A DNA stretch of 64,000 bases from an uncultured Bacteroidia bacterium (GTDB lineage Bacteria; Bacteroidota; Bacteroidia; NS11-12g; UBA9320): the NCBI GenBank assembly GCA_905478335.1, contig CAJQIC010000020.1, positions 1 through 64,000 on the forward strand. Reading direction: 5' to 3'. The notes under the pieces are model-generated. The model saw only the letters and a list, made by a program, of their open reading frames with translations, was not told where the DNA came from and did no database searches. The stretch's first letter is position 1, and every line of letters starts with the position of its first letter. Shown one piece after another: positions 1 to 56,924 of this stretch. The position numbers were made by a program, and so were the translations under genes.

Positions 1-74
1 AGGCTGCTGGAATGTACTTTGTTCGCATGACTGCGCACAACCAAGTATTTAATCAAAAAGTGATGGTGAAATAA
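1..74 (+). CDS. C-terminal end of a T9SS-secreted protein (partial)
   Basis: Only the last 23 codons are present; the gene begins before the window. The readable end, AAGMYFVRMTAHNQVFNQKV and then MVK, has the form of a type A T9SS sorting domain (aliphatic-Gly-x-Tyr-hydrophobic strand, then a final basic Lys-Val-x-Val strand). Such domains send proteins through the outer membrane and are then removed. Nothing can be said of the catalytic or binding part. An intrinsic terminator follows within 25 bases, so this is the end of a transcript. Confidence 0.7.
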   Translation, partial: AAGMYFVRMTAHNQVFNQKVMVK

Positions 75-93
75 TCCATCCTTCAACAAATAC

Positions 94-198: not shown

Positions 199-741
199 TT
201 GAGCAGTGATGAAGAACTTGTAAAGCAATGCATCAACAATAATAGAGAAGCTCAAAAGATGCTCTTTGAGAAGTACGCTTCAAAGATGATGGCCATTTGT
301 TTAAGATATACGTCGAGTCAGGAGGATGCGAAAGACATCCTTCAAGATGGTTTTGTTAAAGTGTTTACTCAACTTGAAAAGTTTGAGTTTAAAAGCACCT
401 TGCAAACTTGGATGTCTCGTGTATTTACAAATTTAGCTATCAATAAAGCGACGAGAGGAATTGCAAAGTATTCACATGTGGACATCGACGAGCAAGTTGG
501 ATTGGCATATGAGGATACTGATGAAGATTTAGGTAAATGGGGCGGACTCACACCTGCGCAAGTTATGAAGCACGTGAGAGCGCTACCAGAAATATACCGA
601 CTGGTATTGAACATGTATGCGGTTGATGGGTACTCTCATCAACAAATAGCAGAAAAGTTAGATATATCAGTAGGATCTTCAAAAAGCCGTTTATCTCGAG
701 CACGCGTAATCTTAAAAGAAAACATTAAAAAAGCTAAGTGA
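199..741 (+). CDS. ECF-family RNA polymerase sigma factor
   Basis: 180 residues, normal for an ECF sigma factor. Region 2 is visible around residues 25-85 (FEKYASKMMAICLRY, then DAKDILQDGFVKVF and the WMSRVFTNLAIN segment). Region 4 with its helix-turn-helix is around 125-175 (YAVDGYSHQQIAEKLDIS, then GSSKSRLSRAR). The start is TTG at 199; no ATG lies in frame nearby. The stop TGA overlaps the GTG start of the next gene, so the two are translationally coupled. The neighbour has the layout of a membrane anti-sigma factor and is probably its regulator. Related to the sigma factor at 49065, with the same region 2 and 4 motifs. Confidence 0.93.
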   Translation: MSSDEELVKQCINNNREAQKMLFEKYASKMMAICLRYTSSQEDAKDILQDGFVKVFTQLEKFEFKSTLQTWMSRVFTNLAINKATRGIAKYSHVDIDEQVGLAYEDTDEDLGKWGGLTPAQVMKHVRALPEIYRLVLNMYAVDGYSHQQIAEKLDISVGSSKSRLSRARVILKENIKKAK

Positions 742-2096
742 GCAATAAGAACGACATATTTGATGATTTGATCAAAAGCCAATTAGAAGGCTTTGATGCA
801 AATGTGTCTATGGCAGATTGGGACGCCATTGCGTCTAAATTGCCTGTCGCTAAGCGTAAAAAGGTTGCCGCCTATTGGTGGTTAACTGGTTTGGCAATTT
901 TGGTTGTTGGTGTTTTAACAACCGCACTTTGGATTAACTTTAGAAATAAGTCAAATGACCTATCTGAATTAGTTATTCTTGAAAAGGACCAAACCACACA
1001 AAAAGAATCTGTTGTTAAAAATAATTATATACCTACACCTAATGAAGCTCCGACTGATAAGACAGTGAATGAGCCAAACCAACCTGAGAATCTTAACACA
1101 GAGATTATTACAACTTCGACAGAAGTTGATTTAAAGACATCGGTTCAGAGTACGACTGGACCAGATAACTTACCTACTAATATTGTAGATATTAAGGCCG
1201 ATGAAGACCGCATTAAGGGCGCGGTAGATTCGGCCTTTTCTACTGAAATTGACAACAATTCGTCAAATGACGACATCGATCCAATAAAATCAACTGAGCC
1301 GGTTATTCTTGTATTAAGTGACTCTAACGACGCTGAAAATAAAACTGAACCAATCACAATCACACCTGCACCACCTATAAAGTGGGAGCTAGGTATTTCT
1401 TTTTCACCCAATTGGGCGAAAAAGCTTATTTCGCCTAACGGGGATCATGCTTGGAGGATTAATAAAGAGTATAACAACATTGTTAATACCATGGAAAGTG
1501 GTTCTATAAGCTATCAGTTTGAAGCACACGTGAACAGATACCTCAATGAACATGTGTATTTCAATGCCGGTATAAACTACAACCAGATAGTTGAGAAGGT
1601 TAATTATAACTATGAGGTTACAGAGTTTGCGACTGAGCGAGTTGGTTTTGATGAATTATTGTACACACCGATAGATCCAAGAATAGGACCAATCGAAGTG
1701 AATTATAGCGGTACGAATACGTATCACTATATTGAGTCACCAGTTCGCATAGGATTTATAAAAGCTATTCCAAGTTCGAAAATGAATTTCAGAGTAGAAA
1801 CTGGGTTGCGTTGCATGGTGCTTACAGACATGTCAGGTAAAAGAACGGATGTAACTCAAATTGAATCTTTGGTTGATCTTAAATCGTCTTTTTCGGAGTA
1901 TTCTCGACATAATTTGGGTGCTACGGCGAACGCTGGACTATATTGGAAAATAATGAAAGGGAAAGGCAGCTTTGGCCTAACAACGTATTACAATTATGCG
2001 TTAACCTCGATACGGAAACGTGACGAAGGAATAACAGAGAAACCCTATAACTTTGGAGTAAACTTTAATTTACAGCGAAAAATCTGGATTAAGTGA
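738..2096 (+). CDS. Probable dual-membrane anti-sigma factor with C-terminal outer-membrane barrel
   Basis: 452 residues with a GTG start overlapping the sigma stop. Residues 1-45 are cytosolic and contain a short D-x-L-x(5)-EG...W-x-x-I pattern (FDDLIKSQLEGFDANVSMAD, then WDAI) also found in the protein at 49600. One membrane segment lies at about 46-67. Residues 70-205 are a low-complexity Asp/Glu/Thr-rich linker, likely disordered in the periplasm. Residues 208-452 alternate in beta-strand fashion, like PorT-type outer-membrane barrels. This layout matches the dual membrane-spanning anti-sigma (Dma) proteins described in Bacteroides thetaiotaomicron; the assignment here is inference from architecture and operon order. 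The downstream gene starts within its stop codon. Confidence 0.72.
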   Translation: MSNKNDIFDDLIKSQLEGFDANVSMADWDAIASKLPVAKRKKVAAYWWLTGLAILVVGVLTTALWINFRNKSNDLSELVILEKDQTTQKESVVKNNYIPTPNEAPTDKTVNEPNQPENLNTEIITTSTEVDLKTSVQSTTGPDNLPTNIVDIKADEDRIKGAVDSAFSTEIDNNSSNDDIDPIKSTEPVILVLSDSNDAENKTEPITITPAPPIKWELGISFSPNWAKKLISPNGDHAWRINKEYNNIVNTMESGSISYQFEAHVNRYLNEHVYFNAGINYNQIVEKVNYNYEVTEFATERVGFDELLYTPIDPRIGPIEVNYSGTNTYHYIESPVRIGFIKAIPSSKMNFRVETGLRCMVLTDMSGKRTDVTQIESLVDLKSSFSEYSRHNLGATANAGLYWKIMKGKGSFGLTTYYNYALTSIRKRDEGITEKPYNFGVNFNLQRKIWIK

Positions 2097-4507
2097 GAAA
2101 GCTGATTTACATATCGATTCTTTTGACCTTAGGGTTCGCTTCTGCATTTGGACAGGGTTTATACCCTTTAGGTGAGGGAAATGAAGTCAACAAAGTGGAG
2201 TTAGTTGCTCAAGCTGACAATGGAGTATACATTTTTGATGTAACAAGTGCATCAACTTATAAATTGTATACGTGGAACGGGTTCAACTACAGCGATTTGG
2301 GAGTCATTCCAAACATCCCTAAACATGGAGATGCAAATAATGAAGATTTCAGAATTGTTGATGCGTTATACGACAATGATGTATTATACGTACTCGGACA
2401 TGATTTTGGAACGTCAAAATCAAATCTACCAACACGTGTAATAACTTGGGATGGTTTAGAATGGAAGGATATTACAACAAGTGATGTTAGTAGTGCTCTT
2501 AGTGTCGCTAAACTTATTAAGTATAACAATAAGGTTTCGATACTAGGCATTTTTACTTCTTCAGGTATCCTCTCTTTAAATTCAGGATCGTGGGAGCACG
2601 TTGGAGGTCAATTGGGAACGGATGCAAAGAATAATTATGTATTGGACGCAGCTGTTTACAGAGGACGCTTATATGCGAGTGGAGAATTTACTAGACCTCT
2701 ATCTGGACAGCAATATAATACCGCAGTATTTGAGAATAATGCGTGGAGACCTGTTGTTACACCACCTTTTATAGGAAAGAGCAAGCAATTTGCTTTATAC
2801 AATGGCGAATTAATGCTTTGTGGTGAGCCAAACGCGGAATTTGATTATTTAAAATCATTTGATGGTATTGGATGGACAAATATGTCGAACGGTTTAGAGC
2901 ATCTGAATGTTTTTGAATTTTGGGATTTGGCCGTTACAGACGAACAAATTTGTTTAACCGGACTGTTTGAGAATAGACAAACCGGAATACAGTTCAATTA
3001 TTTAATTAAGGATTCGGATGGATGGCACTTCGGAGAACAAACGAATAGTGACGACAAAATTCATTTGATATCGACCAATGACCGTATTTATGCATTTGGA
3101 CAATTTTCATACCCAGGTGTTAATGGAATTGGAGAGATAGGTTCAAACGCTGCAATGCTTTCTGGTAAGATTTATATGGACGAGAATGACAATTGCTTGC
3201 ATGAGGAGGACGAACTTGGTCTGCCAATGACTAAAGTTATATTAAACCCGGGCAATTTAGTTACGTTTACGGACGCCAAAGGCTTATATGAATTTCCTGT
3301 TGGTCCTGGGTCATATACAATTTCATTCGAGACAGGATTGAAAAACCGATTTGGATGTGGTCGACTTGCCAGCGTAACAGCTGGATCTCGTGTCAATTAT
3401 TTAGTACCTGAACTGAATGTCGTTGAAAAACCGAACATAGTTGATTTAGAGTTGTCATCACAATTCAGAAATGGCTGGAAATTGGTGAAAGGACAATACA
3501 ATGAGATGCAGCTCAATGCATTCAACAACGGATCGGAAACAATTGAAGGTGCTACCCTCCAGTTAAAAATGGACGATTGGTGGGAGAATGTTCAAATTAC
3601 GCCTACACCAACTTCAATAGTTGATGGTGAGTATACTTGGAATGTGTCGGAGCTTAAAAAAGGAGAACTATATACCATCACAATAAGCGGAACGATAAAA
3701 GCTGATCTTAGTTTGTATAACGATTTCTGTTTTACTGGTGATGTAGATTTCCCTCAAGTGGATGTGTCTAAGAACTCAAATAGAGATGCCGCGCAGCTTA
3801 CAACAGTTGATGAATTGGAACCGATATCCAAACAAGTTGATTGTGGTAGTTGGTACTCGAATGCAACAGAGAACATATCTTATCAGATTCGCTTTGAGAA
3901 TGAGTCAAATGAAACGATAAACAACGTTACTGTCCTTGATACGTTTGATTCTGACTTAATAACTGATTATGCTTGGGATTATACCAACATAGGTTCTTCT
4001 ACAAAACTTGATATCAAGATGGTAAAGGTACCTGGCAAGGAAAAATGGAGGCTGGTTTACACCTGGAACTCTAAGGATGCTGGTATTGCCCCTGCCGGTG
4101 ATATTGACCATAAAGATGTTGGTTATGCGTCGATTAAATTCAAATTACATGATTTAAGTAAGCAAAAAGGTATTGAATTGTGCAATAGAGCACAAGTTAC
4201 ACTTGATAATAGCGAGCCACTTTCTACGAATACGGTTTGTTCAAAAGCGACAACTTTAAACGTTCCTGGTATTGATTTGCCTTCTCAGGTATCTTTTTAC
4301 CCCAACCCAGCAGATCATTACATTGAAATGCACAATGGTTCTAGTGAAAGTAGAACTTTAGAGGTCCTCAATCAAACTGGACAGGTTGTGTATACAGATG
4401 AGTTCAAAGGTTTCGAGGAACGCCGTATAGATATATCTTCGCTTGCAGCAGGAGTCTACGTGTTGAACGTTGTTGGATTTGAGGCTCAAAAGCTAGTTAT
4501 TCAGTAG
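2093..4507 (+). CDS. T9SS-secreted beta-propeller and SdrD-B-like surface protein
   Basis: 804 residues, GTG start in a GTGA overlap with the gene before. A signal peptide ends near residue 20 (SAFGQG). Residues 25-350 contain Kelch-like repeats with NNKV, LYASGEF and ELMLCGE strands. Residues 355-420 resemble an SdrD B-type domain (GKIYMDENDNC, then DAKGLYEFPVGPGSY). Residues 560-700 resemble a DUF11-type adhesion repeat. The last 75 residues are a type A T9SS domain (FYPNPADHYIEM ... GQVVYTDEF ... LAAGVYVLNV). It is likely the cargo controlled by the sigma/anti-sigma pair upstream. Ligand unknown. It ends convergently with comF, overlapping by 7 bases. Confidence 0.85.
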   Translation: MRKLIYISILLTLGFASAFGQGLYPLGEGNEVNKVELVAQADNGVYIFDVTSASTYKLYTWNGFNYSDLGVIPNIPKHGDANNEDFRIVDALYDNDVLYVLGHDFGTSKSNLPTRVITWDGLEWKDITTSDVSSALSVAKLIKYNNKVSILGIFTSSGILSLNSGSWEHVGGQLGTDAKNNYVLDAAVYRGRLYASGEFTRPLSGQQYNTAVFENNAWRPVVTPPFIGKSKQFALYNGELMLCGEPNAEFDYLKSFDGIGWTNMSNGLEHLNVFEFWDLAVTDEQICLTGLFENRQTGIQFNYLIKDSDGWHFGEQTNSDDKIHLISTNDRIYAFGQFSYPGVNGIGEIGSNAAMLSGKIYMDENDNCLHEEDELGLPMTKVILNPGNLVTFTDAKGLYEFPVGPGSYTISFETGLKNRFGCGRLASVTAGSRVNYLVPELNVVEKPNIVDLELSSQFRNGWKLVKGQYNEMQLNAFNNGSETIEGATLQLKMDDWWENVQITPTPTSIVDGEYTWNVSELKKGELYTITISGTIKADLSLYNDFCFTGDVDFPQVDVSKNSNRDAAQLTTVDELEPISKQVDCGSWYSNATENISYQIRFENESNETINNVTVLDTFDSDLITDYAWDYTNIGSSTKLDIKMVKVPGKEKWRLVYTWNSKDAGIAPAGDIDHKDVGYASIKFKLHDLSKQKGIELCNRAQVTLDNSEPLSTNTVCSKATTLNVPGIDLPSQVSFYPNPADHYIEMHNGSSESRTLEVLNQTGQVVYTDEFKGFEERRIDISSLAAGVYVLNVVGFEAQKLVIQ

Positions 4508-9179: not shown

Positions 9180-9198
9180 ATTGATATGTTATTAACGG

Positions 9199-9206
9199 CA
9201 AATTTA
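9199..9206 (-). promoter_or_regulatory. Promoter -7 box of sucB
   Basis: Minus-strand TAAATTTG matches TAnnTTTG fully, giving a 5' leader of about 15 bases before the ATG at 9179. Confidence 0.55.
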
Positions 9207-9321
9207 TAAAACCAAAGCTAATAAAGACGTGTTGAACAGAAACTAAATGTTTCTATATCAGGACAGTCGATTGGGTATAGTTCAAGCGATTTATCCGTAA
9301 TATTGAAACCTATTATTTCAC

Positions 9322-44358: not shown

Positions 44359-47300
44359 CTATTGCATTGAAGGGGCACTTTTTGGTTCAAATCCTTTTAT
44401 GGCTTTTGCAGGTTTATGAAGGAAAATGAAATCTCCATCGTCGTCATGGTCTCCAAACCCTCCGTATTTAGGTGTCGTTGGCATTCTGTTATCGGTTAAC
44501 GAACTCATTAAACGTAGATTGTCGATGAAGTCATCAAAGGTTAATACGTTCCCCTTTTTTGCTCCTTTAGAGCTCAAAGTTTCTATAAACTTCATTGCGA
44601 ATTTGCTTTCATCCGGCACATATTCTAAACTCCCACTTGTAATAAAAAGTCGAGACTTTATTTTCAGCTTGTCCTCAATAAATTTATCGGTGCTGTCTCT
44701 AATGTAAAGCATGTCTGATTCTGAATAGTCTCTCACCTCAGTTTTGTTAAATGCCGATCCTCCAAAACATACATCAAATACGAGCATGATGTGGTTACAG
44801 GAATATGTCTCATTGAAGTAATCGCGGATATCTGTAAACTTTAAATAGCTACGTAAACTTCCATCTAACTCTGAGTTTTTGGCTACTATGAACCCCCCCT
44901 TGCCAGGCTTATAATGACCATGACCCGCAAAAAAGACGAGTAGTTGATCTTTAGGCGCGTAGGATATTTTTTCTGTGTAGTGGGCTATTACGTCGTCCAT
45001 TTCTTCAACTGTCAGATCTACTTTGATGTCGACCTTAAACCCATACAATTCCGTTAACAGATTGCCAATCTTCTCGACGTCTTTTAACGGATTTGCGAGG
45101 TCAGACCACTCATTGTATTCGCTAGTTGCAAATAGTAAAGCATAATTGGTTTGAGATGTATTTATGTCATTTGGGTCAACTAGTTTTTCGCTCGACTTAT
45201 TAATTATGAAGGAGTCCATGGCAACATTACCTTTTCCGTCTTTGGCTTGAATAACCAATTTTGTCCACGTGTTTGTGAAATTTTGGTCTAGATTAAACTT
45301 GCCATTTTGAGTAAATGCCACACTAACCCCATTTACCAGTATTTCTGAAATACCACTTTCGTCTAGTGCTTGCCCGCCGACATTTTTAGAAATCGTCACG
45401 ATTTTTGTCTTGCCGCCGCGCTTACCATCAGAGTTTATGACGTTAGGGATATAGATCATAGGTGGTGTGGTGTCGGTAGTGTTGGCAGATGCATTTACAA
45501 ATGTCAATGGGAAATCTACCCCGGAAGAGTAACTTTTTAAATCAAACTGAAGATTGCCAGAAGACATATTCCCGTACATATATCCTTCTAAGCTTTTAGA
45601 GGTCACATAGGCCAGTGATGCAGTTGTGTCTTTATGGAAACTACTTTGCCAAGATGTTGCAGCATTTCCAGAAAAGCCTTCTGTCAAATATGACGTGAAC
45701 AAACTCATGTCTTGTTTGGGCATCTCAACACGACCATCTGAGACTAAAAATCCGATACTTTCGGCCAAAAATTCGTGTTTATTTTCACGCTGGTTTGCAG
45801 CGTATTGATCTATCAAACTAGAATTTACAGCATCAATCAATAAAAGTTTTTTAGACGCCGACATAGAAGACAGCCAAGATAAAATCTGTTCATTGTCGAT
45901 GGTGTCAGAACCTACGATAAGTTTGTCGTCTGTGGTGTATCCGGTATAATATAGTATAAAACAGTCTCCAGGTTTTGAGTGGATGATAACATCCTTGAAA
46001 GCTGAATGTACCGAATCCTTGATGTCTTTGTTTAAGACATACACATGGGATTGGTCAAATATTCTCTTTGCGCGTTCTCCAACAACATCTGCCATCAATT
46101 GAGCGTCGTTACGCGCATTGGTGTATCCGTTGGGGTTGCTACCATTTGTTCCAATACTTATAAAATAGAGGTCGTTGCTGCGCTGATTACTCTGAATTTT
46201 TCGTCGTGCAGCCAGCTTCATTTTATTAAACATATCCTGCATCACATCATTGTCTAGCCAGTCATTCAAATTACTGATCATCTCAAGATCGTTCATTTCT
46301 AGTTCTGGATCATTAATATGTTTTAAGTTGATGTTCCAACTTGTCGTATAGCGAGCTAACGAAGTCACATAATCCTTGTGCATATAATAATTATAAGCGC
46401 TCCATCTATGGTAATTCCTTAACAGGCCATATCGAACAAACGTGCCTCTGCTTTCAAACGCTATTGCAGAATCAAAGGCTATTCCTGCCTGTAGATAATC
46501 TTCTTGTTTTTCGAGACCCTGACCTCTGACAAAATGTTCGTTTCCGGTGGCCTTATATTTATAGTGCTTGTTCCATTGATTTGTTAGGTGAGTTTTTTCG
46601 CGCTCGACTTGTTCTACTTCCCAACCGTTTTCTATAAAGAAATCGAAATCCGGAATGATACCTTCGTCAAATACTGAAGTTGCACCTGCATTTTCAAGCG
46701 CTTTTATATAGTACTTTCTGGCTTTTGTGTACTTCCTAAGCAACGTAAGCGAATGGCCATAATTCATAGCGTACGTGGCATCGTTACTATCCAACATATA
46801 GGCTTTTTTTGTATGCTCTTCGGAAGCCTTAAAACGTCCTAGTTTAATTAAAGTCCAACCGTACATACCATGACCGGAGGCATATTCAGACATGTTGTCC
46901 TTCACGAATGCAAATTCGGGTAGGGCTTTCATCAAATCTTCCGATGTCAGGTACATCAAACCCAATTGCCAATGAATATTATAGTCTTTAGGAACTTCTT
47001 TAAGTAAAGCACGATACACTTTTTCAGATTCAGCATACTGTTGTTTGGTCTGGAAAATCCAAGCCCGAATCAATTCAAAATCACGGTATTCTTGTCTGAA
47101 ATTGTATGTAGTCGTTAAGGAGGACCATTGGTCAACTAATTGTATAGCACTGTCTAGGTGACCTTGATTGATTACGGAATAGATGTTTGTCTGAATCTCT
47201 GAGAAATCAAAGTCGGCCACTTTTAAATACCGACCATAATTGGTCTCCCAAGCCTCCCAGTCTGCATCGGTTATCACATCTTTATAAAGACCGGAAAGCA

Positions 47301-48426
47301 AATTCCCTTCGTCTTCGTTTGTGGGTGTGTGGTTAATCACCCAAGTTGCATAGGCCTCATCTATACGGAATTTGCGACCCATATATCTATGTGGGTATTC
47401 TATTACGTATCTAAAAAATGCCTTTACATCAGTCGTTTTTGTTACCAACATGGCTTCCCACATATTTAGACCCGCAAAAGCACCTGAATCTATTTTTTCG
47501 TTCATGTCACTTTCTTCAGGATCATACAATGATTTGGCTGTATTGACAATAATGTCGCGCATCATTTCAATCAACGCGTCTTCACTGGTTTCTGAAGAGA
47601 TTTGTTGCGCAACCTTGTAGCTGTATAGTGGTAAATTTTTGTCACTTAAAAAAGGAATATGAAAGCGCGTTAGCTGTTGGATCAAACCATCATAGGCGTC
47701 AGGATTGGCACCAACTTCCATATAATTGAGATCGCCTATTTGAGGCTTAAAACCACTTGCCTTCCCATCATCACTCATGACCATATACCACTGTGATCGT
47801 CCTTGATCTACCGACACAACGGTGGTTTCGCCTAAAGCTTCAACATACCGTTCAGGGTCATTGGCATCGTATATGGCTACAAACCATCCGGATTGGTCTA
47901 TTCTTATGGAGTCGCGCATGCCTAAATCCATAGTAAACCAAGTGGTATCTCCCGAAGTTCTATCTATGGAAGAAACCGGGTATCGGGAATATTCCCTTTC
48001 TGTATTCCAACCTTCGAAGCCATAAAAACTTTGATACTTTCTTGCTGAATCTTCAAAGAACGATACTTGTTGTATGGCAGACTGCGCTTCTTCAATGTGC
48101 CCACCTCTTTGGTAGTTTAACGCCGCCAGAAAAAAGTACTGTGACGCTGCGCCATAGTACGTTTCAGACACAAAAAATCTGGCATAAAGTTCAAATACTT
48201 CGCCGATAAACTTCCTGTCTTGACCCTCTTCGAGTTCTTTCTCTTCCATTACAGCGCCTAACAAGAGTGAGAAAACGTCATCATACTTACCTTTCTCTAT
48301 TAGCTTGAGGGCTTTGTCGTATGACTTCTTGGCTTTTTTAGAATTTTGCGCACTGCTTTGGCTTGCCGTACTTATAAAAATGAGTGCGACAATAGCATAT
48401 GTAAATAACTGCTTCAGTAGAACCAT
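44359..48426 (-). CDS. TPR protein with tandem caspase-like domains
   Basis: 1355 residues from ATG 48426 (MVLLKQLFTYAIVALIFIST, signal peptide). A longer frame to 48528 lies upstream of the promoter at 48444. Residues 25-740 are mostly TPR-like helices. Caspase domain 1 (about 753-880) lacks its catalytic pair: YYTGYTTDDKL (Tyr830 in place of His) and LLLIDAVNSSLID (Val867 in place of Cys). An Ig-like region follows. Domain 2 (about 1090-1340) is intact: FFAGHGHYKPG (His1169) and FDVCFGGSAF (Cys1220). It is probably a periplasmic caspase-family protease whose first domain is regulatory. Substrate unknown; no T9SS domain. Confidence 0.87.
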   Translation of the reverse strand: MVLLKQLFTYAIVALIFISTASQSSAQNSKKAKKSYDKALKLIEKGKYDDVFSLLLGAVMEEKELEEGQDRKFIGEVFELYARFFVSETYYGAASQYFFLAALNYQRGGHIEEAQSAIQQVSFFEDSARKYQSFYGFEGWNTEREYSRYPVSSIDRTSGDTTWFTMDLGMRDSIRIDQSGWFVAIYDANDPERYVEALGETTVVSVDQGRSQWYMVMSDDGKASGFKPQIGDLNYMEVGANPDAYDGLIQQLTRFHIPFLSDKNLPLYSYKVAQQISSETSEDALIEMMRDIIVNTAKSLYDPEESDMNEKIDSGAFAGLNMWEAMLVTKTTDVKAFFRYVIEYPHRYMGRKFRIDEAYATWVINHTPTNEDEGNLLSGLYKDVITDADWEAWETNYGRYLKVADFDFSEIQTNIYSVINQGHLDSAIQLVDQWSSLTTTYNFRQEYRDFELIRAWIFQTKQQYAESEKVYRALLKEVPKDYNIHWQLGLMYLTSEDLMKALPEFAFVKDNMSEYASGHGMYGWTLIKLGRFKASEEHTKKAYMLDSNDATYAMNYGHSLTLLRKYTKARKYYIKALENAGATSVFDEGIIPDFDFFIENGWEVEQVEREKTHLTNQWNKHYKYKATGNEHFVRGQGLEKQEDYLQAGIAFDSAIAFESRGTFVRYGLLRNYHRWSAYNYYMHKDYVTSLARYTTSWNINLKHINDPELEMNDLEMISNLNDWLDNDVMQDMFNKMKLAARRKIQSNQRSNDLYFISIGTNGSNPNGYTNARNDAQLMADVVGERAKRIFDQSHVYVLNKDIKDSVHSAFKDVIIHSKPGDCFILYYTGYTTDDKLIVGSDTIDNEQILSWLSSMSASKKLLLIDAVNSSLIDQYAANQRENKHEFLAESIGFLVSDGRVEMPKQDMSLFTSYLTEGFSGNAATSWQSSFHKDTTASLAYVTSKSLEGYMYGNMSSGNLQFDLKSYSSGVDFPLTFVNASANTTDTTPPMIYIPNVINSDGKRGGKTKIVTISKNVGGQALDESGISEILVNGVSVAFTQNGKFNLDQNFTNTWTKLVIQAKDGKGNVAMDSFIINKSSEKLVDPNDINTSQTNYALLFATSEYNEWSDLANPLKDVEKIGNLLTELYGFKVDIKVDLTVEEMDDVIAHYTEKISYAPKDQLLVFFAGHGHYKPGKGGFIVAKNSELDGSLRSYLKFTDIRDYFNETYSCNHIMLVFDVCFGGSAFNKTEVRDYSESDMLYIRDSTDKFIEDKLKIKSRLFITSGSLEYVPDESKFAMKFIETLSSKGAKKGNVLTFDDFIDNLRLMSSLTDNRMPTTPKYGGFGDHDDDGDFIFLHKPAKAIKGFEPKSAPSMQ

Positions 48427-48443
48427 ATCTAAAGATCTTAAGC

Positions 48444-48451
48444 CAAATTTA
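48444..48451 (-). promoter_or_regulatory. Promoter -7 box of the caspase-like gene
   Basis: Minus-strand TAAATTTG fully matches TAnnTTTG. It predicts transcription from about 48439, 13 bases before the ATG at 48426, so the first 34 codons of the longer frame would not be transcribed. Confidence 0.6.
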
Positions 48452-48514
48452 TTAAATATATATGGAACTGAGCGGATTGGTAAATGATAGTGGTCATAAT
48501 ACAAGTGTGCTGAG

Positions 48515-48522
48515 TATTTTTG
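48515..48522 (+). promoter_or_regulatory. Promoter -7 box of the YbjN gene
   Basis: TATTTTTG fully matches TAnnTTTG. Four bases (CTGC) separate it from the ATG at 48527, the same spacing as at kynU and the helicase, predicting leaderless mRNA. Confidence 0.55.
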
Positions 48523-48526
48523 CTGC

Positions 48527-48997
48527 ATGGATTTAAAACCGTTTTATGAAATTGCAGAAGACGCAATTAAAACGTTGGGTGTAGACCCTGAGACAACACG
48601 ATGCGAAGACCCAGGACAGTGGATTATTACAAGAGAACCAATTGAAATATTCATTGACATTTGGCAACCCCAAGAAGCAAATCAATGGGAGTATTTTAAG
48701 GAAGATGAGCCAACTGCAATATTTCAAGTAGTGGCGCCCGTATGTTATTTGCCCGATAGTGAGGCTGATAAAGCCAAATTTATGGAAGAAGTGTTGTACA
48801 TTAACCACCATATGTTTTATGGTAGCTTCACCGTTAACATGGAGGAGTCAATGGCGGCTATTGGATTTAAAAGATTGCTAGAAGGCGCTAATCGAGTAGA
48901 GATGATTGAACCTATAGAAAGCATCGGATTTTATGCAGAAAATTTGTCGAACTATCTTTCAAAAAAATACAATCTGAAAAAAATCGAAAAAAATTAA
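48527..48997 (+). CDS. YbjN-family protein
   Basis: 156 residues of mixed alpha/beta form. It resembles the YbjN / type III secretion chaperone-like fold: a helical N-terminus, WIITREPIEIFIDIWQP, FQVVAPVCYLP, LYINHHMFYGSFTVNM and a C-terminal helix. Such proteins are small cytoplasmic regulators or chaperones of unclear role. It is divergent from the caspase-like gene and sits 67 bases before the sigma factor gene. Function unknown. Confidence 0.75.
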   Translation: MDLKPFYEIAEDAIKTLGVDPETTRCEDPGQWIITREPIEIFIDIWQPQEANQWEYFKEDEPTAIFQVVAPVCYLPDSEADKAKFMEEVLYINHHMFYGSFTVNMEESMAAIGFKRLLEGANRVEMIEPIESIGFYAENLSNYLSKKYNLKKIEKN

Positions 48998-49064: not shown

Positions 49065-49607
49065 ATGACAGCGGACAAACGAGATACAGAATGGAAATTG
49101 GTAAAGCAATCTTTGCAAGGAGACCATTCTGCTTTCGAGCTGTTGTATAAGTCATTATCACCCAAAATGTACGCCGTAAGTTTAAGATACACGCACCAAG
49201 ATCAAGACGCACAAGATGTGTTGCAAGAGGCGTTTATCCGGATTTACAAGAATTTAAAACAATTTAAATTCAACGGCTCGTTTGAAGGTTGGTGCAGAAG
49301 GATTGTTACAAATACAGCTATAGAAGCATTACGTAAAAAAGGTAGAATGAAGGAAAATTCTACAGAGGTGCTTCCAGATTTGCCTGTAGATCCTAAAAGT
49401 TTTGAAAAGTTAAAATATGATGACTTGATGAAACTTGTTCGTGCACTTCCAGATGGATATCGCAGTGTGTTCAACCTGTATGTGATTGATGGATTTAGTC
49501 ATAGAGAAATTGGCGAAATGCTAGGCGTTACAGAAAGCACAAGTAAAACTCAGCTGTATAAAGCCAGATTGGCTTTGCAGAAAAAAGTACTAGAAACGAT
49601 TGAGTAA
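49065..49607 (+). CDS. ECF-family RNA polymerase sigma factor (second locus)
   Basis: 180 residues from ATG 49065. Region 2: LLYKSLSPKMYAVSLRYTHQ, then DAQDVLQEAFIRIYKNL and WCRRIVTNTAIEALRKK. Region 4: RALPDGYRSVFNLYVID, GFSHREIGEMLGV, then STSKTQLYKARLAL. It is a paralog of the protein at 199. Its last eight bases overlap the next gene, the probable anti-sigma factor. The upstream region has a candidate autoregulatory element (49006). The likely regulated cargo is the giant protein at 50975. Confidence 0.94.
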   Translation: MTADKRDTEWKLVKQSLQGDHSAFELLYKSLSPKMYAVSLRYTHQDQDAQDVLQEAFIRIYKNLKQFKFNGSFEGWCRRIVTNTAIEALRKKGRMKENSTEVLPDLPVDPKSFEKLKYDDLMKLVRALPDGYRSVFNLYVIDGFSHREIGEMLGVTESTSKTQLYKARLALQKKVLETIE

Positions 49608-50892
49608 AGAAAAGAACATATCGGAATTTGATTCGCTATTCAAACAGACGTTTGAGGGCGCCAGTTCGAGTGTGCCCCCTGGTGTTTGGGAAGGTGTTTC
49701 TGCTGCTACAACAGGAGTTGCAGGTGCTTCCAGTGCATCCTTATTGTCGAAACTGTTCGGTATTAAGGGCGCAGCCATTTTAGGATCTGTAGCCGTAATT
49801 GTTACTTCTACTGTTTTACTGACAAAGCAGTCAGATTCTCAACCTGAAGTAGAAACGGCAAGTAATCAAACGGAAATAGTTGTTGATGCGCAAACGGATA
49901 AGAACGAATCGCCGGATGTAGTTTTACCAACTGATAAGTTGCCTAACAATGAAACGGCAAGTAACGTGTCTGTTGATTCAAAAGAAAAAAACAACAGCCA
50001 AACGCCAAACAATTCAGTTGCGCTTGAAGTTTCATCGAACGACGTCATACAACCCGATTATTCTGATAATGATGTGGCAGGGACGAGTGTAAATAATCCA
50101 AGTAATAGTGAGCCAACAAAATCTGCAAGCACACTGACATTGTCAGCATCTTCTGAAACCATATGTCAAGGTCAAAAAGTGGACGTTTCTTTACTTGGGG
50201 CCAATGCGCTGAAAGATGTTAATTGGACTGTAGATGGCAAACCAGTGGTTTCCAATAGAAAGTACATGAGCTTTTTGTTTGAAAAAGCTGGAGTACATTC
50301 AATTCAACTGAACGCTACTAATTCTGCTGGAGATAAGTTAAGTGCTAACCAAAATATACAAGTTATTGAGGCAGATGCTTCATTTAAGGTAAGTCAAAAA
50401 GATGGCAAGATGTATTTAACTTCATTGAAGCCAGTAAAGTCGAACCAATGGTACGTGAACCAGGTGTTGGTGAAAGAAAATCAAATTTCAACTTCATATC
50501 AAGCAGAAACGAAAACAAACGTAATCGTTCATGTCGCTACAAACTTGAATGGTTGCAGTGATACTGCACGACAGGAAGTGGATAGAGTGCCAAATTGTGC
50601 TGGTGATTTGAAGGTGCCAAATATATTCACACCGTATTATCAGGATGGTATTAACGATGACTTTGTCATCGACATGCCACAAGTTGAAGGATATAGATTA
50701 ACCGTATACAACCTAAAAGACGGGAAGGTCGTCTTTGATACAGAAAACCAGGTACAAAACTGGAATGGTAAGTACGACAACGAAGGGGCAATGGTTCCAG
50801 TTGGTTACTACATCTACCGATTGGTATATAGTTGTAACGGGAAAACCACCACAAAACAGGACAGAATAATGGTTTCAGATGCAAAAAATTAA
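49600..50892 (+). CDS. Inner-membrane anti-sigma-like protein with T9SS type B domain
   Basis: 430 residues from TTG at 49600, overlapping the sigma gene. Residues 1-50 include FDSLFKQTFEGASSSVPPGV then W, matching the cytosolic region of the protein at 738 (FDDLIKSQLEG...W). One membrane helix is at about 57-75 with no cleavage site. Residues 76-170 are a Ser/Thr/Asn/Asp-rich linker. A PKD-like domain is at about 178-250, and residues 333-430 form a gliding-associated (type B) T9SS domain: VPNIFTPYYQDGINDDFVID ... YRLTVYNLKDG ... NWNGKYDNEG ... VGYYIYRLVYSCNGKTTTKQ. So an N-terminal inner-membrane anchor and a T9SS signal occur on one protein. Role as anti-sigma is inferred from operon order. 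Confidence 0.78.
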   Translation: MSKEKNISEFDSLFKQTFEGASSSVPPGVWEGVSAATTGVAGASSASLLSKLFGIKGAAILGSVAVIVTSTVLLTKQSDSQPEVETASNQTEIVVDAQTDKNESPDVVLPTDKLPNNETASNVSVDSKEKNNSQTPNNSVALEVSSNDVIQPDYSDNDVAGTSVNNPSNSEPTKSASTLTLSASSETICQGQKVDVSLLGANALKDVNWTVDGKPVVSNRKYMSFLFEKAGVHSIQLNATNSAGDKLSANQNIQVIEADASFKVSQKDGKMYLTSLKPVKSNQWYVNQVLVKENQISTSYQAETKTNVIVHVATNLNGCSDTARQEVDRVPNCAGDLKVPNIFTPYYQDGINDDFVIDMPQVEGYRLTVYNLKDGKVVFDTENQVQNWNGKYDNEGAMVPVGYYIYRLVYSCNGKTTTKQDRIMVSDAKN

Positions 50893-50974: not shown

Positions 50975-53900
50975 ATGAAAATGACAAAGAACAGAACTAA
51001 GTTTTTGATGTATTTGTTTTTCCCGATGCTATTGCTTTTGGGACAAGTAAATGCAGCTGACGCTCAATGTAAACCAAGCTATACGGCTGGTAATGAGTGT
51101 GAAAATGTGGCCATTAACTTTAAAGCTAATGCACCAGGATTCTCTACCTACGATTGGGAGTACAAAGAAAAAGTTTCTGGAACTGTGATAGGGAGCTCGG
51201 CTGATCGAGATCCTTCTTTCCCGTTTCCAAAGGCTGGTACTTACGTAATCACCCTGAAAGCTTCAGGTGTTGCAGGTAATTGTACAGAATCTTTTGAGAT
51301 TGTTATTAAGCCAAGTCCAAAGGCAATTCCATTTCTAATTACACCTAATCGACAGTGTTTTAAAGGGAATCAATTCTGTCTAATTGATAGCAGTACGCCT
51401 GCACCAGGTAGCCAGATTGTACGTAGAACGATATTGTTCTCGGATGGTCAGCGTTACGACAAGGTTAATCCAACATTTGGAGACACCATCTGCCATACAA
51501 TCATCGACCCTAAAGGTGGTTGGTTTAACATGAAGATGGAGCTTGAAGATAAAAACGGTTGTGTTACAGAAGCATACTTTAATGATTTTATTCAAGTATT
51601 CCCTAGGTTAAATGTTCGATTGAGTAGTAACTCGCCAACTAAGTGTGACTCTACGAAAGCAACCATTACCAACCTAACATACAACGACTGGAAAAACAAC
51701 AATGAGACGACTATCGGGTTGAAAGACATCGCTCAGTTTGTTTTTGATTTCGGTGGTGGTGATCCTAAAGTGGTCATTGGTGACTCAGTTACCAATACCA
51801 AATATTGGACTGGTGAAGCATTTGATGGAATTACAGAACACTGGTACCGAACACATGGTACTTTCAATGCGACACTTTCTGTGACGTCACGTTTTGGCTG
51901 TTCTGAGACGTTTACGTATAAAGGTGCTGCAACCAACATTAAATTAAGACCTCAAATTATTGCGGATAAAGATTCGGCTTGTACGAGCGACCCTGAAACT
52001 TGTTTCAGTGTTTCTACAGGCCCAATACCTGGAGCACAGTTCTTATGGACGTTTGGTGACCCTCCATCGGGTAACTTAAACTTCGATGATAAAACTTGGA
52101 CTCCTTGTCACTCATACGGTGGTGGTCCTTGGATGATTTCATTACGAATCGTTTCGGGCCCATGTGATATCATGATCTTTGATACAATCACTAAAGTGGG
52201 TCCATCATCAACTATTGAAGTTCCATTTGTACGTGTTCTTGAAAAAGAGAAGTACCAATGTGAAATCAGAGATAGTGTTCATTTTGTAAACAACTCTAGT
52301 TTTTACCATGATGATCCAAATTATTGGGATGAAGATTCATTCTTCTATTTCTATCCAAAATCTTTCAGAATTGTTAAGCATAGAGTTACTGGCGTAGATA
52401 GTATCTATACCTATAGTAATGTGAAAACAAACACAGATACGTTTAAGGCAAAATATGCTGTAAGCGAGATTTTGTATCAAGATGGAGCTAAGATTTACTT
52501 TGATACTGACCTAGACTCATTTGTTGTTGTTATAGGGAATTCAAGCGGAGGTAATGACACGACTAAATTCGGTCGAGATATGGGCGGTTTGTATTCAAAG
52601 CGTCGATATGTATTTAACTTCAATGAGGATACACGAGCAGGTGATCAAACTGCAATTCCTGTAGATCCTGCAATTCGAAGAAAAGACCACGTTTACCGTT
52701 TATGGACATTGGGAGACAATTTTGCGCCCCCATGTACTACCGACACAAAGGCAAATAAAAACGTTAACCTAAACTGTAATTTTACCTTAGACTCGTTACC
52801 CGTTCACTGGTATACGCCTTGGGATGATATTTATAGATACAGGAATAACGGACAGTTTTATACCAACCCCGCACCTAGAACATTGTTTAGCCGACATGCG
52901 CGACAATGTTACCAAGTACAGGTTTACCCTGCTGATACCGCAAGAGTACCTCAAGAGGTTGTTTTATTTGTGCCTAAAGACACAACAAAAACATTCTACA
53001 TCCCTTACACGGATTCAATGGGTGTTGCAAGAACAGACACTATTGAAATTTTGGGATGGAAGAAGTATCCAGAATTTCAACAAAGAAATAATTACCGCCT
53101 AAAAATATGGAAGCCTGAGGCTGTCTATACAGGTGAGGTAATCAGCACGGTAATATGGGAAGACCATGATTACTATATTCCAGCGGGTGTTACTATTCGA
53201 CTGAAAAACCTTCAAAACGGAATGGTTACTACAGTAACTGGTCCTAAGGTTCATACCATCGAAAAAGACTACCAGTTTGAAGTTGATGAAGGGGATTCGA
53301 TTGTATCACTTCCAGAAATGATTATCAATCCTGAGCGGGTTGTTATTGCTGGAGCAAGTAATATTTTAATTGACACCGTTATCAATGGTGTAGAAACTAC
53401 AGTTCAACGCTCTGTTGTATTGGTTGATTCTGTATACCACAGAAACTATTTCTATAACAATACGGCATCTTGTAACTCAGTTACATTATTCCATAAAGAC
53501 ACTGTTCACCCATTTAAGTGTGAAAGTTCAAACAATATTTCATTGGCACTTATCCCACCAAGTGCAAGAGGCTTGCGATGGGAGTCAGGTATTCCTTGTC
53601 CATTAGATGGGAATAAGTTGAATTATTACCTTACGTTCAATATGGACGAAACGAAGCCTGGTTGTACACAACAATGGTTTGAAGTGAATTATGATTCACT
53701 TACTGGTCCTGATAACTGGATTAATTACAAAAGTGGTGGAATATTAGCACCACCGCCTCCAGGGTTACCGATTCCATTCGTCTTACCGTATGATATCATT
53801 GGTCAGTGGGGAACTCAATTTGTAAAAGGATATTCTTCTGGAGAGATAGGAAGTGATCCAAGCAAACGTCCAAATGGTTCATTTACCATTGGTTTGGTCG

Positions 53901-56695
53901 TTGCTAACGGACCACCTGCAACAGATAAAGACGGAAATCCAATCGCACCAGAGTGTACTGACACAGCATGGTATAGCGACATGTTCCGTTACCAATACTT
54001 AGATGCTCAGTTCGACATCTTATTACCTCAGAATGATCCATTGGCACTATGTGCTGGAGGAACTGCATATTTCAGAATGTTAAACCCTATTCAAGACAGT
54101 ATTGCTGCATTGAGATGGAACTGGGGTTACCCTGATCGTTTATCAGGATACTACGAAGAATTCCAATACTTCCAAGAATACAAAGGTCCTGTTAATGGAC
54201 GTAATGATGAAGGAACTACTTGGAATCAAGGTAAAGACGTTTGGTTGTATAACTATGTAGTGCGTCACAACCTAGATGAATTATTAGGTGACGAAACAAT
54301 CGACACGCTTGTAACAAGAATTTACCGCGATTGGGACTACGAAGTGAATACGTATCAAGCTGACAAGATTCTTGTAGATATTTTGAAGCAGTTGAATCTT
54401 GACATTAGAGATATACCTGACGAAGATTTTGCATTGATGTTAGGAGATGGAACAGTAGGTTGTATCGATACAACTGGAATTAGTGAGTACTTTATCATTG
54501 GTAAAAAAGGTATTGACGAAAACGTAGTTTTCCATGATCAATACAAGTACCAGTATACAAACGACGGAAAAACGGATTCTGTAATTATTGAAGAGGTATT
54601 TCACTTTAGAGATTCTTCGATTCAAGGTTTCGACACACTTGTTGCACCTTACGATCTAGTTGCTACAGATACGGTTTATAAGCGTGGAGCAGTTATACCT
54701 GATGTATATAAATTTACGTACCGTCATCCAGAGGTTCGCTTGAATTTCTGTGATCCAACCAAGAAAGATACTTTCTGGGTGAATTCTAACGGACCAATGG
54801 TTCCAGGGATATTCCTGAACAACCGAGTGGGATGTGAGAAGAGTGGTGCGAGACTGCTGAATGTTGGTTACCTCAATAAATTTGAGTTGTTAAACCAAGC
54901 GGTTTGTAAAAATCAAGTACACGAATTATACGACAGTATTCGATACTGGCAATATGGGGATGACGCATTCCCGAATGATTACCCTATCGATCCACGTAAG
55001 TTCTGGGAAGATCCAGTACGATACGCTAATGGAAAATTAGAGATTAAATCAATTGATTGGAATTACGGCGATGGTGTTGATGACTTCAACAGATCGATTA
55101 CATTCTTCAACCAATATGATAGTGCTGGCGAATATGTTGTTGCTATTGCTACTAGAGATTCAATTGGATGTACAGATACGGCTTTTGTAACAGCGTTTGT
55201 GACTGGGGCACTTGCCAATTTCGAAACCAACCAAGCGGTAGGCGGAGATCCATGTGATGGAATCATTAACTTCTTTGATTCATCAGTGGTATTTGATCCA
55301 TGTCGAGGAAGAGATACTTGTCCAAATGGTGTTTATGAGCCATGTGACAGTGTAGTATGGTATGAGTGGGACTTTGGTGACGGTTCAACAAGAAGTGTAC
55401 TGAAAAACCCATCACACGATTACACGTCTAGTGGATGGTTTACAATCAAATTGAAAATTTACACCTTGTTGGGTTGTGAAGATTCAGTAGAGAAGCAAAT
55501 ATTCATTGAAGGACCTCAACCAAGGTTTGAGTTTGACGGAGGCAGCGTCTGGGGTGAAGATTCCATAATAATATGTGTGGGAGATTCCGTCCATCTGGCC
55601 AATACGAGTATTGATCCAATGTACAATCCAAATTGGGTGTTGTCATGGGGTGATTCGTTGAATTCAACTTCTTCAACAACTGACCCGAATAAGATATTAT
55701 CTCACCAATACAATGATTCAGGTGTATACTATCTATTGATGTACATGGAAGACACGATTGAAGGATCAGCGAACAGATGTTTCCGCGTATTCCCAGATAC
55801 AAGTACCAAGGATGGTAAAATACCTCGTAGAATAAAGGTAATTGTTAAACCAGTTGCTCCAGCTAAATTGGAAATTGCACCAGATACAGTTTGTCCTTTC
55901 CAAGAGGTTGTATTTACAAGTAACTCAGATACTATCTATAAGTATTACCAATGGTCATTTGGTGATGGCGATACTGCCACGCGAAACGATCCAGTAAATG
56001 TGGTTAGCCATAGCTATAAAGCTCCTGGTCGATACACAGTTGAGTTAATACCAAATTACGATCTCCCACCTGGTGATTTCGGACCACGTTGTCAAGATGT
56101 TGATACCGGTTATGTAACTGTTATTAAGCCAACAGCTGATTTCGATATAATCGATGTTGACAAACCTGATTTCTGTTTCACCAACACGTCAACCGGAGCG
56201 AAAACGTACGAGTGGCAAATTGAAACAGAGGTACGTGATACGGCATACGAATACACAAGTGACCTCAGCGAGCAAGTTTGCTACAATTGGGGCGAAACAG
56301 TTGGAACGTTTGCCATCTGTTTAATCGCGACAAATGAAGCAGGATGTAAAGACACAATTTGTAAAACGATAGAGAACGACTTCTTTATTAAGTTTATCCC
56401 TTACAACGTATTTACTCCAGATGAAGAAGATGCGTTGAACAACGAATTTGTTGTTGATATAGAAGGATACGAAGAATACCGTATCGACATCTACAACAGA
56501 TGGGGTGAGCTTGTCTTTAAAACTGAGTCTGTGAATAATGCACCAATCATTAATTGGGATGGTACAATCATGAACAAAGGAACAAAGTGTCCTGCAGGAA
56601 CATACTTCTATGTAATCAACTACAAGTTGAAAAACCGACCTGAGAATGGTGAAGTAGGTGAACCAGTAAGCGGTACCGTTACCTTAATACGATAG
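50975..56695 (+). CDS. Giant PKD-repeat T9SS type B surface protein
   Basis: 1906 residues from ATG 50975 (MKMTKNRTKFLMYLFFPML, signal peptide ending about AADAQC). A frame opening at 50879 overlaps the previous gene and adds 32 residues before the signal; it was rejected. The body carries several PKD-type domains (WDFGDGSTRSV, WSFGDGDTATRN, WNYGDGVDDFN), Cys-rich segments and Asp/Thr-rich repeats. The last 105 residues are a type B T9SS domain (IPYNVFTPDEEDALNNEFVV ... YRIDIYNRWGELVF ... NWDGTIMNKG ... AGTYFYVINY). Likely an adhesin for gliding or attachment. An intrinsic terminator follows. Confidence 0.88.
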   Translation: MKMTKNRTKFLMYLFFPMLLLLGQVNAADAQCKPSYTAGNECENVAINFKANAPGFSTYDWEYKEKVSGTVIGSSADRDPSFPFPKAGTYVITLKASGVAGNCTESFEIVIKPSPKAIPFLITPNRQCFKGNQFCLIDSSTPAPGSQIVRRTILFSDGQRYDKVNPTFGDTICHTIIDPKGGWFNMKMELEDKNGCVTEAYFNDFIQVFPRLNVRLSSNSPTKCDSTKATITNLTYNDWKNNNETTIGLKDIAQFVFDFGGGDPKVVIGDSVTNTKYWTGEAFDGITEHWYRTHGTFNATLSVTSRFGCSETFTYKGAATNIKLRPQIIADKDSACTSDPETCFSVSTGPIPGAQFLWTFGDPPSGNLNFDDKTWTPCHSYGGGPWMISLRIVSGPCDIMIFDTITKVGPSSTIEVPFVRVLEKEKYQCEIRDSVHFVNNSSFYHDDPNYWDEDSFFYFYPKSFRIVKHRVTGVDSIYTYSNVKTNTDTFKAKYAVSEILYQDGAKIYFDTDLDSFVVVIGNSSGGNDTTKFGRDMGGLYSKRRYVFNFNEDTRAGDQTAIPVDPAIRRKDHVYRLWTLGDNFAPPCTTDTKANKNVNLNCNFTLDSLPVHWYTPWDDIYRYRNNGQFYTNPAPRTLFSRHARQCYQVQVYPADTARVPQEVVLFVPKDTTKTFYIPYTDSMGVARTDTIEILGWKKYPEFQQRNNYRLKIWKPEAVYTGEVISTVIWEDHDYYIPAGVTIRLKNLQNGMVTTVTGPKVHTIEKDYQFEVDEGDSIVSLPEMIINPERVVIAGASNILIDTVINGVETTVQRSVVLVDSVYHRNYFYNNTASCNSVTLFHKDTVHPFKCESSNNISLALIPPSARGLRWESGIPCPLDGNKLNYYLTFNMDETKPGCTQQWFEVNYDSLTGPDNWINYKSGGILAPPPPGLPIPFVLPYDIIGQWGTQFVKGYSSGEIGSDPSKRPNGSFTIGLVVANGPPATDKDGNPIAPECTDTAWYSDMFRYQYLDAQFDILLPQNDPLALCAGGTAYFRMLNPIQDSIAALRWNWGYPDRLSGYYEEFQYFQEYKGPVNGRNDEGTTWNQGKDVWLYNYVVRHNLDELLGDETIDTLVTRIYRDWDYEVNTYQADKILVDILKQLNLDIRDIPDEDFALMLGDGTVGCIDTTGISEYFIIGKKGIDENVVFHDQYKYQYTNDGKTDSVIIEEVFHFRDSSIQGFDTLVAPYDLVATDTVYKRGAVIPDVYKFTYRHPEVRLNFCDPTKKDTFWVNSNGPMVPGIFLNNRVGCEKSGARLLNVGYLNKFELLNQAVCKNQVHELYDSIRYWQYGDDAFPNDYPIDPRKFWEDPVRYANGKLEIKSIDWNYGDGVDDFNRSITFFNQYDSAGEYVVAIATRDSIGCTDTAFVTAFVTGALANFETNQAVGGDPCDGIINFFDSSVVFDPCRGRDTCPNGVYEPCDSVVWYEWDFGDGSTRSVLKNPSHDYTSSGWFTIKLKIYTLLGCEDSVEKQIFIEGPQPRFEFDGGSVWGEDSIIICVGDSVHLANTSIDPMYNPNWVLSWGDSLNSTSSTTDPNKILSHQYNDSGVYYLLMYMEDTIEGSANRCFRVFPDTSTKDGKIPRRIKVIVKPVAPAKLEIAPDTVCPFQEVVFTSNSDTIYKYYQWSFGDGDTATRNDPVNVVSHSYKAPGRYTVELIPNYDLPPGDFGPRCQDVDTGYVTVIKPTADFDIIDVDKPDFCFTNTSTGAKTYEWQIETEVRDTAYEYTSDLSEQVCYNWGETVGTFAICLIATNEAGCKDTICKTIENDFFIKFIPYNVFTPDEEDALNNEFVVDIEGYEEYRIDIYNRWGELVFKTESVNNAPIINWDGTIMNKGTKCPAGTYFYVINYKLKNRPENGEVGEPVSGTVTLIR

Positions 56696-56890: not shown

Positions 56891-56924
56891 GTTTCTTGAT
56901 ACAAAACAGTTATGAGCAAGAAAC
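56891..56924 (+). promoter_or_regulatory. Translational expression platform over the metH start
   Basis: GTTTCTTG (56891-56898) pairs perfectly with CAAGAAAC (56917-56924), which puts the metH ATG (56912-56914) in an 18-base loop. TTTCTTGATA (56892-56901) is also perfectly complementary to TATCAAGAAA (56781-56790) at the aptamer's 5' edge. The two pairings exclude each other, so the aptamer's state could decide whether the ATG is sequestered. Confidence 0.6.

Follow-up and report, generated by a model that had tools for sequence, protein, structure and literature searches.

An anti-sigma-like membrane protein ending in a probably export-incompetent type B domain, encoded beside a giant type B cargo in Bacteroidia

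The window, a stretch of 64,000 nucleotides from an uncultured Bacteroidia bacterium, encodes an anti-sigma-like membrane protein of 430 residues that ends in a CHU_C domain, resembling the type B C-terminal domain (CTD) of type IX secretion system (T9SS) cargo. The gene follows an ECF sigma factor gene and precedes the gene for a giant cargo protein with a type B CTD of its own. The anti-sigma version of the domain keeps most of the type B core and has lost a single Arg-Trp hairpin. Judging from these sequence features, it is probably an export-incompetent mimic that is docked at, or competes for, the type B export machinery, and not a substrate threaded through it.

Gene order in the window and in relatives

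The anti-sigma gene (49600..50892, + strand, as are all features given below with two dots) is an open reading frame with a TTG start. Its first 8 nt (49600-49607) overlap the end of the gene for a 180-residue ECF sigma factor (49065..49607; Pfam Sigma70_r2 E 3.3e-16, Sigma70_r4_2 E 7.7e-15). Relatives of the anti-sigma begin at the identical alignment column, some of them with ATG, and this common start column ruled out a frame artefact or a wrong start. In an alignment of orthologues, the sigma factor showed identities of 37-89%, and it is homologous to the sigma factor of a barrel-type pair at 199. The cargo gene (50975..56695, most likely starting at the ATG at 50975) encodes 1906 residues with a signal peptide-like N-terminus and PKD repeats (Pfam PKD_4 E 3.4e-30, CHU_C E 8.2e-17). 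Both the overlap with the sigma gene and the type B cargo downstream had been part of the original prediction for this locus and were confirmed.

Upstream of the sigma gene lies a gene for 156 residues (48527..48997) that is weakly YbjN-like (Pfam YbjN E 0.036 only); such a gene lies 5' of the sigma gene in the majority of loci from the family and its order. The neighborhood contains further genes. On the - strand, and thus divergent from the cluster, 44359-48528 encodes a 1389-residue protein with TPR repeats and caspase-like (Peptidase_C14) domains, which is kept beside the cluster in the closest relatives. The next gene after the cargo (56912-59560) encodes a cobalamin-dependent methionine synthase (MetH), is found in the same place in the family, and matches its model only from about position 325. 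It is followed at 59639-61129 by an arylsulfotransferase-like protein with a type A T9SS CTD.

A first search, of 58 relatives, recovered full-length homologues from the family as well as its order, and the gene order could be read in 40 loci: weakly YbjN-like gene, sigma factor, CHU_C anti-sigma, giant CHU_C cargo. A class-wide search and additional loci widened this set. Altogether, a sigma gene followed by a helix-bearing CHU_C protein was found in 78 loci, or 75 once three duplicates were dropped. These loci span at least 12 families of the class (counted by our family labels f1, f2, f6, f11, f12, f17, f24, f34, f38, f55, f57 and f60), and the layout is present in UBA6063 and UBA10340 metagenome genomes and in one Crocinitomicaceae genome. 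With 75 non-redundant loci sharing the layout, a one-off fusion is ruled out. Among 118 genomes sampled across the phylum, no second full-length match was seen at E 1e-20, so the layout is widespread in part of the class without being general.

In 73 of the 75 loci, the sigma gene and the anti-sigma gene either overlap or lie at most 20 nt apart. Rows of sigma, anti-sigma and type B cargo genes, which the original prediction had suggested seeking in other genomes, were also recovered: a further CHU_C gene lies within the next two genes in 59 of the 75 loci, while the remaining 16 have no adjacent CHU_C gene, in some cases because the contig ends. The prediction had added that no report of this T9SS variant was known, and we likewise found none of the sigma, CHU_C anti-sigma and type B cargo layout in the open literature searched.

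Protein parts and kinship with Dma anti-sigma factors

Pfam searches, hydropathy and an AlphaFold2 model (28 homologues as input) bore out the predicted arrangement of an N-terminal segment, a membrane helix, a linker, a PKD-like part and a type B CTD. The model contains a helix at residues 7-18, mostly disorder from about residue 34 to 169, and three confident beta-sandwiches between residues 180 and 425. Residues 1-50 (49600..49749), which include the helix at 7-18, an invariant P26 and a PPxVW motif, form the presumed cytosolic anti-sigma segment, as supported by hhalign comparison with Dma-type anti-sigmas. The membrane helix (about residues 54-75; 49759..49824) coincides with the hydropathy maximum (57-75, mean 2.01) and lies inside the hhalign match; the model confidence for it is low. 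The following tether (residues 77-178; 49828..50133) is rich in P, E, S, N and T and disordered, according to composition (P, E, S, K, Q, N, T, D and G make up 76% of residues 77-176) and a pLDDT that is mostly below 50 over residues 83-169.

The folded part of the protein begins with a beta-rich PKD domain of high pLDDT (residues 179-246; 50134..50337; Pfam PF00801 E 9.7e-6). A second Ig/PKD-like beta-sandwich (about residues 258-330; 50371..50589; pLDDT 89-96) was matched by Foldseek to tandem domains of the Aureispira grappling hook protein; a sequence search of solved structures with the anti-sigma profile gave matches limited to FlgD and C5a peptidase Ig-like domains. The CHU_C domain occupies residues 338-420 (50611..50859). 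Assignment of this region to the type B family, as originally proposed, is supported by Pfam (PF13585 E 8.8e-13, over the cut-off), and the NCBI type B model TIGR04131 also matches the 430-residue protein, at E 2.7e-5 and 24.2 bits, under its curated cut-off of 35. CHU_C was found in all 28 homologues of the anti-sigma alignment, which rules out a chance or low-complexity match. Together with the gene order in 75 non-redundant loci, this places the domain and its setting beyond chance.

No cleavable Sec signal peptide was found in the anti-sigma: the first hydrophobic helix begins near residue 54-57, and the best hydropathy window (57-75) sits too deep for a signal peptide that is cleaved. In most relatives, the hydropathy maximum begins at residue 40-81, in agreement with a single transmembrane helix behind the anti-sigma segment. 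The charge rule gave no clear signal for topology, an excess of K/R on the N side of the helix being seen in only 30 of the 75 loci.

We compared the 28-homologue alignment with 43 candidate anti-sigmas encoded at other sigma loci, 13 of them with a barrel match to Pfam OMP_b-brl_2, and obtained an hhalign match to these Dma-type anti-sigmas (probability 96.7, E 3.4e-10) that covers residues 7-76 and is confined to the N-terminus and helix. An outer-membrane barrel was looked for in the 28 homologues and no OMP match was detected. The domain thus stands where Dma proteins have their barrel, as had been predicted. Dma2 consists of an anti-sigma domain, a transmembrane helix, a disordered tether and a barrel, and its effect requires its sigma factor (PMC13088901). 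Like the Dma family of Bacteroides, which goes with ECF21-type sigma factors (PMC13088901), the proteins described here have an adjacent ECF sigma gene, a homologous N-terminal segment and transmembrane helix, and a long disordered tether. Unlike that family, they end in CHU_C, often behind Ig/PKD domains, and belong to loci linked to a giant type B cargo. By sigma adjacency and hhalign homology, the N-terminal segment at 49600 is of the Dma type; lacking the barrel, the whole protein is not classed as a Dma, although it may act like one with a different outer end.

The window also contains a barrel-type cluster for comparison (199..4507). It consists of a paralogous ECF sigma gene (199..741), a Dma-like barrel anti-sigma gene (738..2096), whose proposed nature proved real (OMP_b-brl_2 E 2.4e-9), and a gene for a type A CTD cargo (2093..4507; Por_Secre_tail E 1.6e-10). 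The three genes overlap in a row, so that barrel with type A and CHU_C with type B occur side by side in one genome.

In the barrel-type anti-sigma at 738, about 148 residues separate the helix from the barrel match. The distance between transmembrane helix and CHU_C in the 75 loci is 123-300 residues and never less than 123. Several families have dropped the PKD part and retain helix, tether and CHU_C; in the shortest forms, the tethers are rich in P, E, S, K and N and about 127-146 residues long. Since both are long enough, the tethers of the two types could serve equal reach, presumably to the outer membrane. In all loci the CHU_C domain lies within 5-33 residues of the C-terminus.

In a tree of 144 sigma factors, in which several nodes are weakly supported, partners of CHU_C and non-CHU_C types interleave (10 changes), and the sensor end therefore seems to have been swapped more than once. 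In a survey, class I anti-sigma domains adjoined just 6% of the ECF sigma factors of Bacteroidetes, and other classes were suggested (PMC7406223). Our data indicate that the Dma scaffold can bear envelope sensors other than a barrel.

The hairpin of the CHU_C domain

Exported type B domains carry a hairpin with the sequence NRWGE. At this site (residues 371-376; 50710..50727), the anti-sigma of the window reads NLKDGK. Residues at each position were counted in an alignment of C-termini from 76 anti-sigma proteins and 58 cargos, bearing in mind that the rows are related and do not represent independent events. The hairpin R is present in 58 of 58 cargos versus 12 of 76 anti-sigmas, and the W in 52 of 58 versus none of 76, with an aromatic Y at the W site in at least two anti-sigmas (loci L191 and L214). 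The last-strand Gly drops from 58 of 58 to 35 of 76. In contrast, the core residues D, N, W, G, G and Y are kept in 72-75 of the 76 anti-sigmas; the core W is found in 75, a G in 74 and the Y in 74, and each of these three is present in all 58 cargos.

A hairpin W occurs in 18 of the 20 other CHU_C domains of the window's genome and, with few exceptions, in the other CHU_C proteins of the collected loci. Two proteins that are not known anti-sigmas also have a hairpin without Arg-Trp, namely L180 12900-16241 (DRTGK) and L215 3296-3868 (SRNGE, at a contig edge). The profile that detected the domains recovered the cargos too, and was thus not biased against the hairpin. In a CHU_C tree, the anti-sigma domains, all without W, fall mainly into one clade, with a second clade and the stray L150 (8 changes versus a mean of 63 after shuffling). 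Hairpin loss is seen in separate CHU_C branches, and also in several branches of the sigma tree.

In the AlphaFold model of the anti-sigma, the hairpin site forms the turn that joins strands 364-371 and 377-381, and it is also a turn in the model of the cargo CTD. In F. johnsoniae, five conserved motifs were described in the last 100 residues of type B CTDs, each of them needed for secretion of an SprB CTD fusion (PMC12618676). From motif order and secondary structure, we infer that the hairpin is one of these five. With the hairpin erased, and since SprB CTDs mutated in a single motif were not secreted, the anti-sigma CHU_C looks non-exportable. Most of the surface is kept and one exposed element is lost, which is best explained by a mimic that docks without being exported itself. 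The residues behind specific recognition of type B signals await mapping (PMC12618676), and the erased hairpin marks residues that are probably important for this recognition in general.

Comparison with the type B proteins SprB and PG1035 (PMC9143113, PMC12618676) gives a mixed picture. The anti-sigma at 49600 shares with them a CHU_C domain at the very C-terminus that has most of the core motifs. By the same comparison of sequences, it is unlike type B cargo in that it has no cleavable signal peptide, has an anchoring helix after the first 50 or so residues, lacks the Arg-Trp hairpin and rarely has a carrier gene next to it.

The original prediction had the domain threaded into the translocon in the manner of a substrate. 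In that case, a working type B signal would sit in SprA with the N-terminus still in the inner membrane, and the stalled protein would report on export. Retention of the CHU_C fold and of several core motifs, a tether that could span to the outer membrane, and the finding that T9SS substrates pile up on the translocon once energy input is removed (PMC10994853) would agree with such a state. However, Arg-Trp is missing in all 76 copies, the last-strand Gly is altered in about half, each conserved type B CTD motif is needed for secretion (PMC12618676), and a substrate anchored in the membrane should block the translocon. The threading proposal is weakened by these results, and we regard it as distinctly improbable.

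The missing hairpin could also mean that an export role was simply lost and that the protein has a plain Ig-like ectodomain, whose ligand is external or in the envelope and which is unconnected with the T9SS. The match to TIGR04131 under its cut-off and the extra PKD domains, common among binding proteins, would fit. But the core motifs outside the hairpin are near-invariant and not drifting, the linkage to type B cargo is kept across many families, and CHU_C keeps its place at the C-terminus in all loci, which makes a plain ectodomain improbable.

Possible sensing of type B export

The CHU_C domain of the cargo (residues 1808-1890 of 1906; 56396..56644; local profile E 1.2e-26) has an intact NRWGE hairpin at 56495-56509, located with the help of the cargo CTD model. 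A sequence search of the Protein Data Bank with this CTD had Aureispira GhpA as its only match (E 9.6e-7), and the model matched T9SS CTD structures weakly (8glk, E 0.014). GhpA is also a close fold match to the ectodomain of the anti-sigma, but unlike the latter it is a huge surface protein and not a regulator.

In keeping with the T9SS context assumed originally, the same genome encodes SprA and six PorP/SprF proteins over the cut-off, and three of the six are encoded beside CHU_C genes. PorP/SprF-like carriers receive type B domains from the translocon, and the domains then remain bound to them (PMC9143113, PMC12635249), and T9SS substrates bind carrier loops within the SprA pore (PMC10994853). 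No PorP/SprF gene was found near the cargo in the window's locus, where MetH follows. A conserved carrier gene 3' of the cargo was ruled out among the relatives as well, the neighbors there being MetH, TyrRS, MnmE, a nucleotidyltransferase and others. A single relative, L190, has a PorP/SprF gene (8535-9542) directly after the sigma, CHU_C anti-sigma and CHU_C cargo genes. The missing carrier neighbor is not decisive, because three orphan substrates are known in F. johnsoniae (PMC12618676); by analogy, the cargo would use an orphan carrier if the anti-sigma domain is a docking mimic.

Likeness between the CHU_C domains of anti-sigma and cargo was 0.370 within loci versus 0.359 between loci, a difference reached by 1.3% of 5000 permutations and confounded by relatedness, and co-evolving identity of the two was set aside. 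As cognate pairs are hardly more alike than others, a common partner of the two domains is not evident. These figures also bear on a model in which the CHU_C and Ig domains bind the CTD or the PKD repeats of the cargo in the periplasm, so that the sigma factor tracks cargo build-up without translocon contact. Such a model would explain why sigma, anti-sigma and CHU_C cargo are linked in 59 of the 75 loci and why the ectodomain is built from the same kinds of domains as the cargo. It is less compatible with the 16 loci without an adjacent CHU_C gene, with a long tether that purely periplasmic contact would not need, and with the limited likeness of cognate pairs, though binding need not require likeness. 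We consider periplasmic cargo sensing unlikely.

For the docking mimic, we tentatively propose the following sensor scheme, at somewhat below an even chance for the scheme as a whole. The N-terminal segment of about 50 residues would retain the sigma factor on the cytoplasmic side of the inner membrane, and the tether would let CHU_C reach the outer membrane. There, CHU_C would dock on a site that handles type B domains, either a PorP/SprF-type carrier or the SprA translocon. With the hairpin gone, the domain would probably not be exported and could instead report whether the site is free or occupied by cargo. A change in docking, through cargo competition, proteolysis or force, would release the sigma factor, which would turn on its own operon including the cargo gene. 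Candidate signals are a free carrier, a blocked carrier or cargo build-up.

That CHU_C senses the T9SS at all is something we infer from several lines of evidence. The Dma homology of the N-terminus and the known layout of Dma2 (PMC13088901) argue for the scheme, as do the gene order, the minimum distance between helix and CHU_C, the frequent cargo CHU_C gene nearby, and a PKD part that is dispensable where CHU_C is not. The selective hairpin loss with a preserved core, the secretion defect of SprB CTD mutants, and the presence of SprA and PorP/SprF point in the same direction. Counted against it are the absence of a carrier gene from the locus, the unalike cognate CHU_C pairs, the loci without an adjacent CHU_C gene, and the N-side K/R excess in a minority of loci.

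Regulated cleavage is common among anti-sigma factors. Proteolysis might therefore free the whole ectodomain, which would then be exported or degraded, with CHU_C serving to dispose of the fragment after sigma release. The C-terminal position of CHU_C would suit export of such a fragment, but the hairpin loss argues against export, and we rate this course of events as very improbable.

PorA, which acts indirectly, is the one CTD-linked regulator that we found described. Like the protein reported here, PorA of the PorXY-SigP system in Porphyromonas gingivalis (PMC7712824) is a CTD-bearing protein tied to an ECF sigma factor and the T9SS. However, it is a separate surface protein with a signal peptide, upstream of PorXY, whereas the CTD-like domain here is fused to the anti-sigma, and the cluster bears a cargo gene and not T9SS components.

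How the production of very large type IX substrates is coupled to export capacity is barely known in Bacteroidota. Here, a signal-like domain is fused to an anti-sigma and has stayed beside a type B cargo in many families, so that direct coupling can be tested. It is possible, if rather doubtful, that these proteins represent a class of anti-sigma factors that sense through an export-dead copy of a secretion signal, docking on a type IX carrier or translocon and telling the sigma factor whether the site for the giant protein is free. The CHU_C domain of the anti-sigma may in this way let the cell read its secretion status directly.
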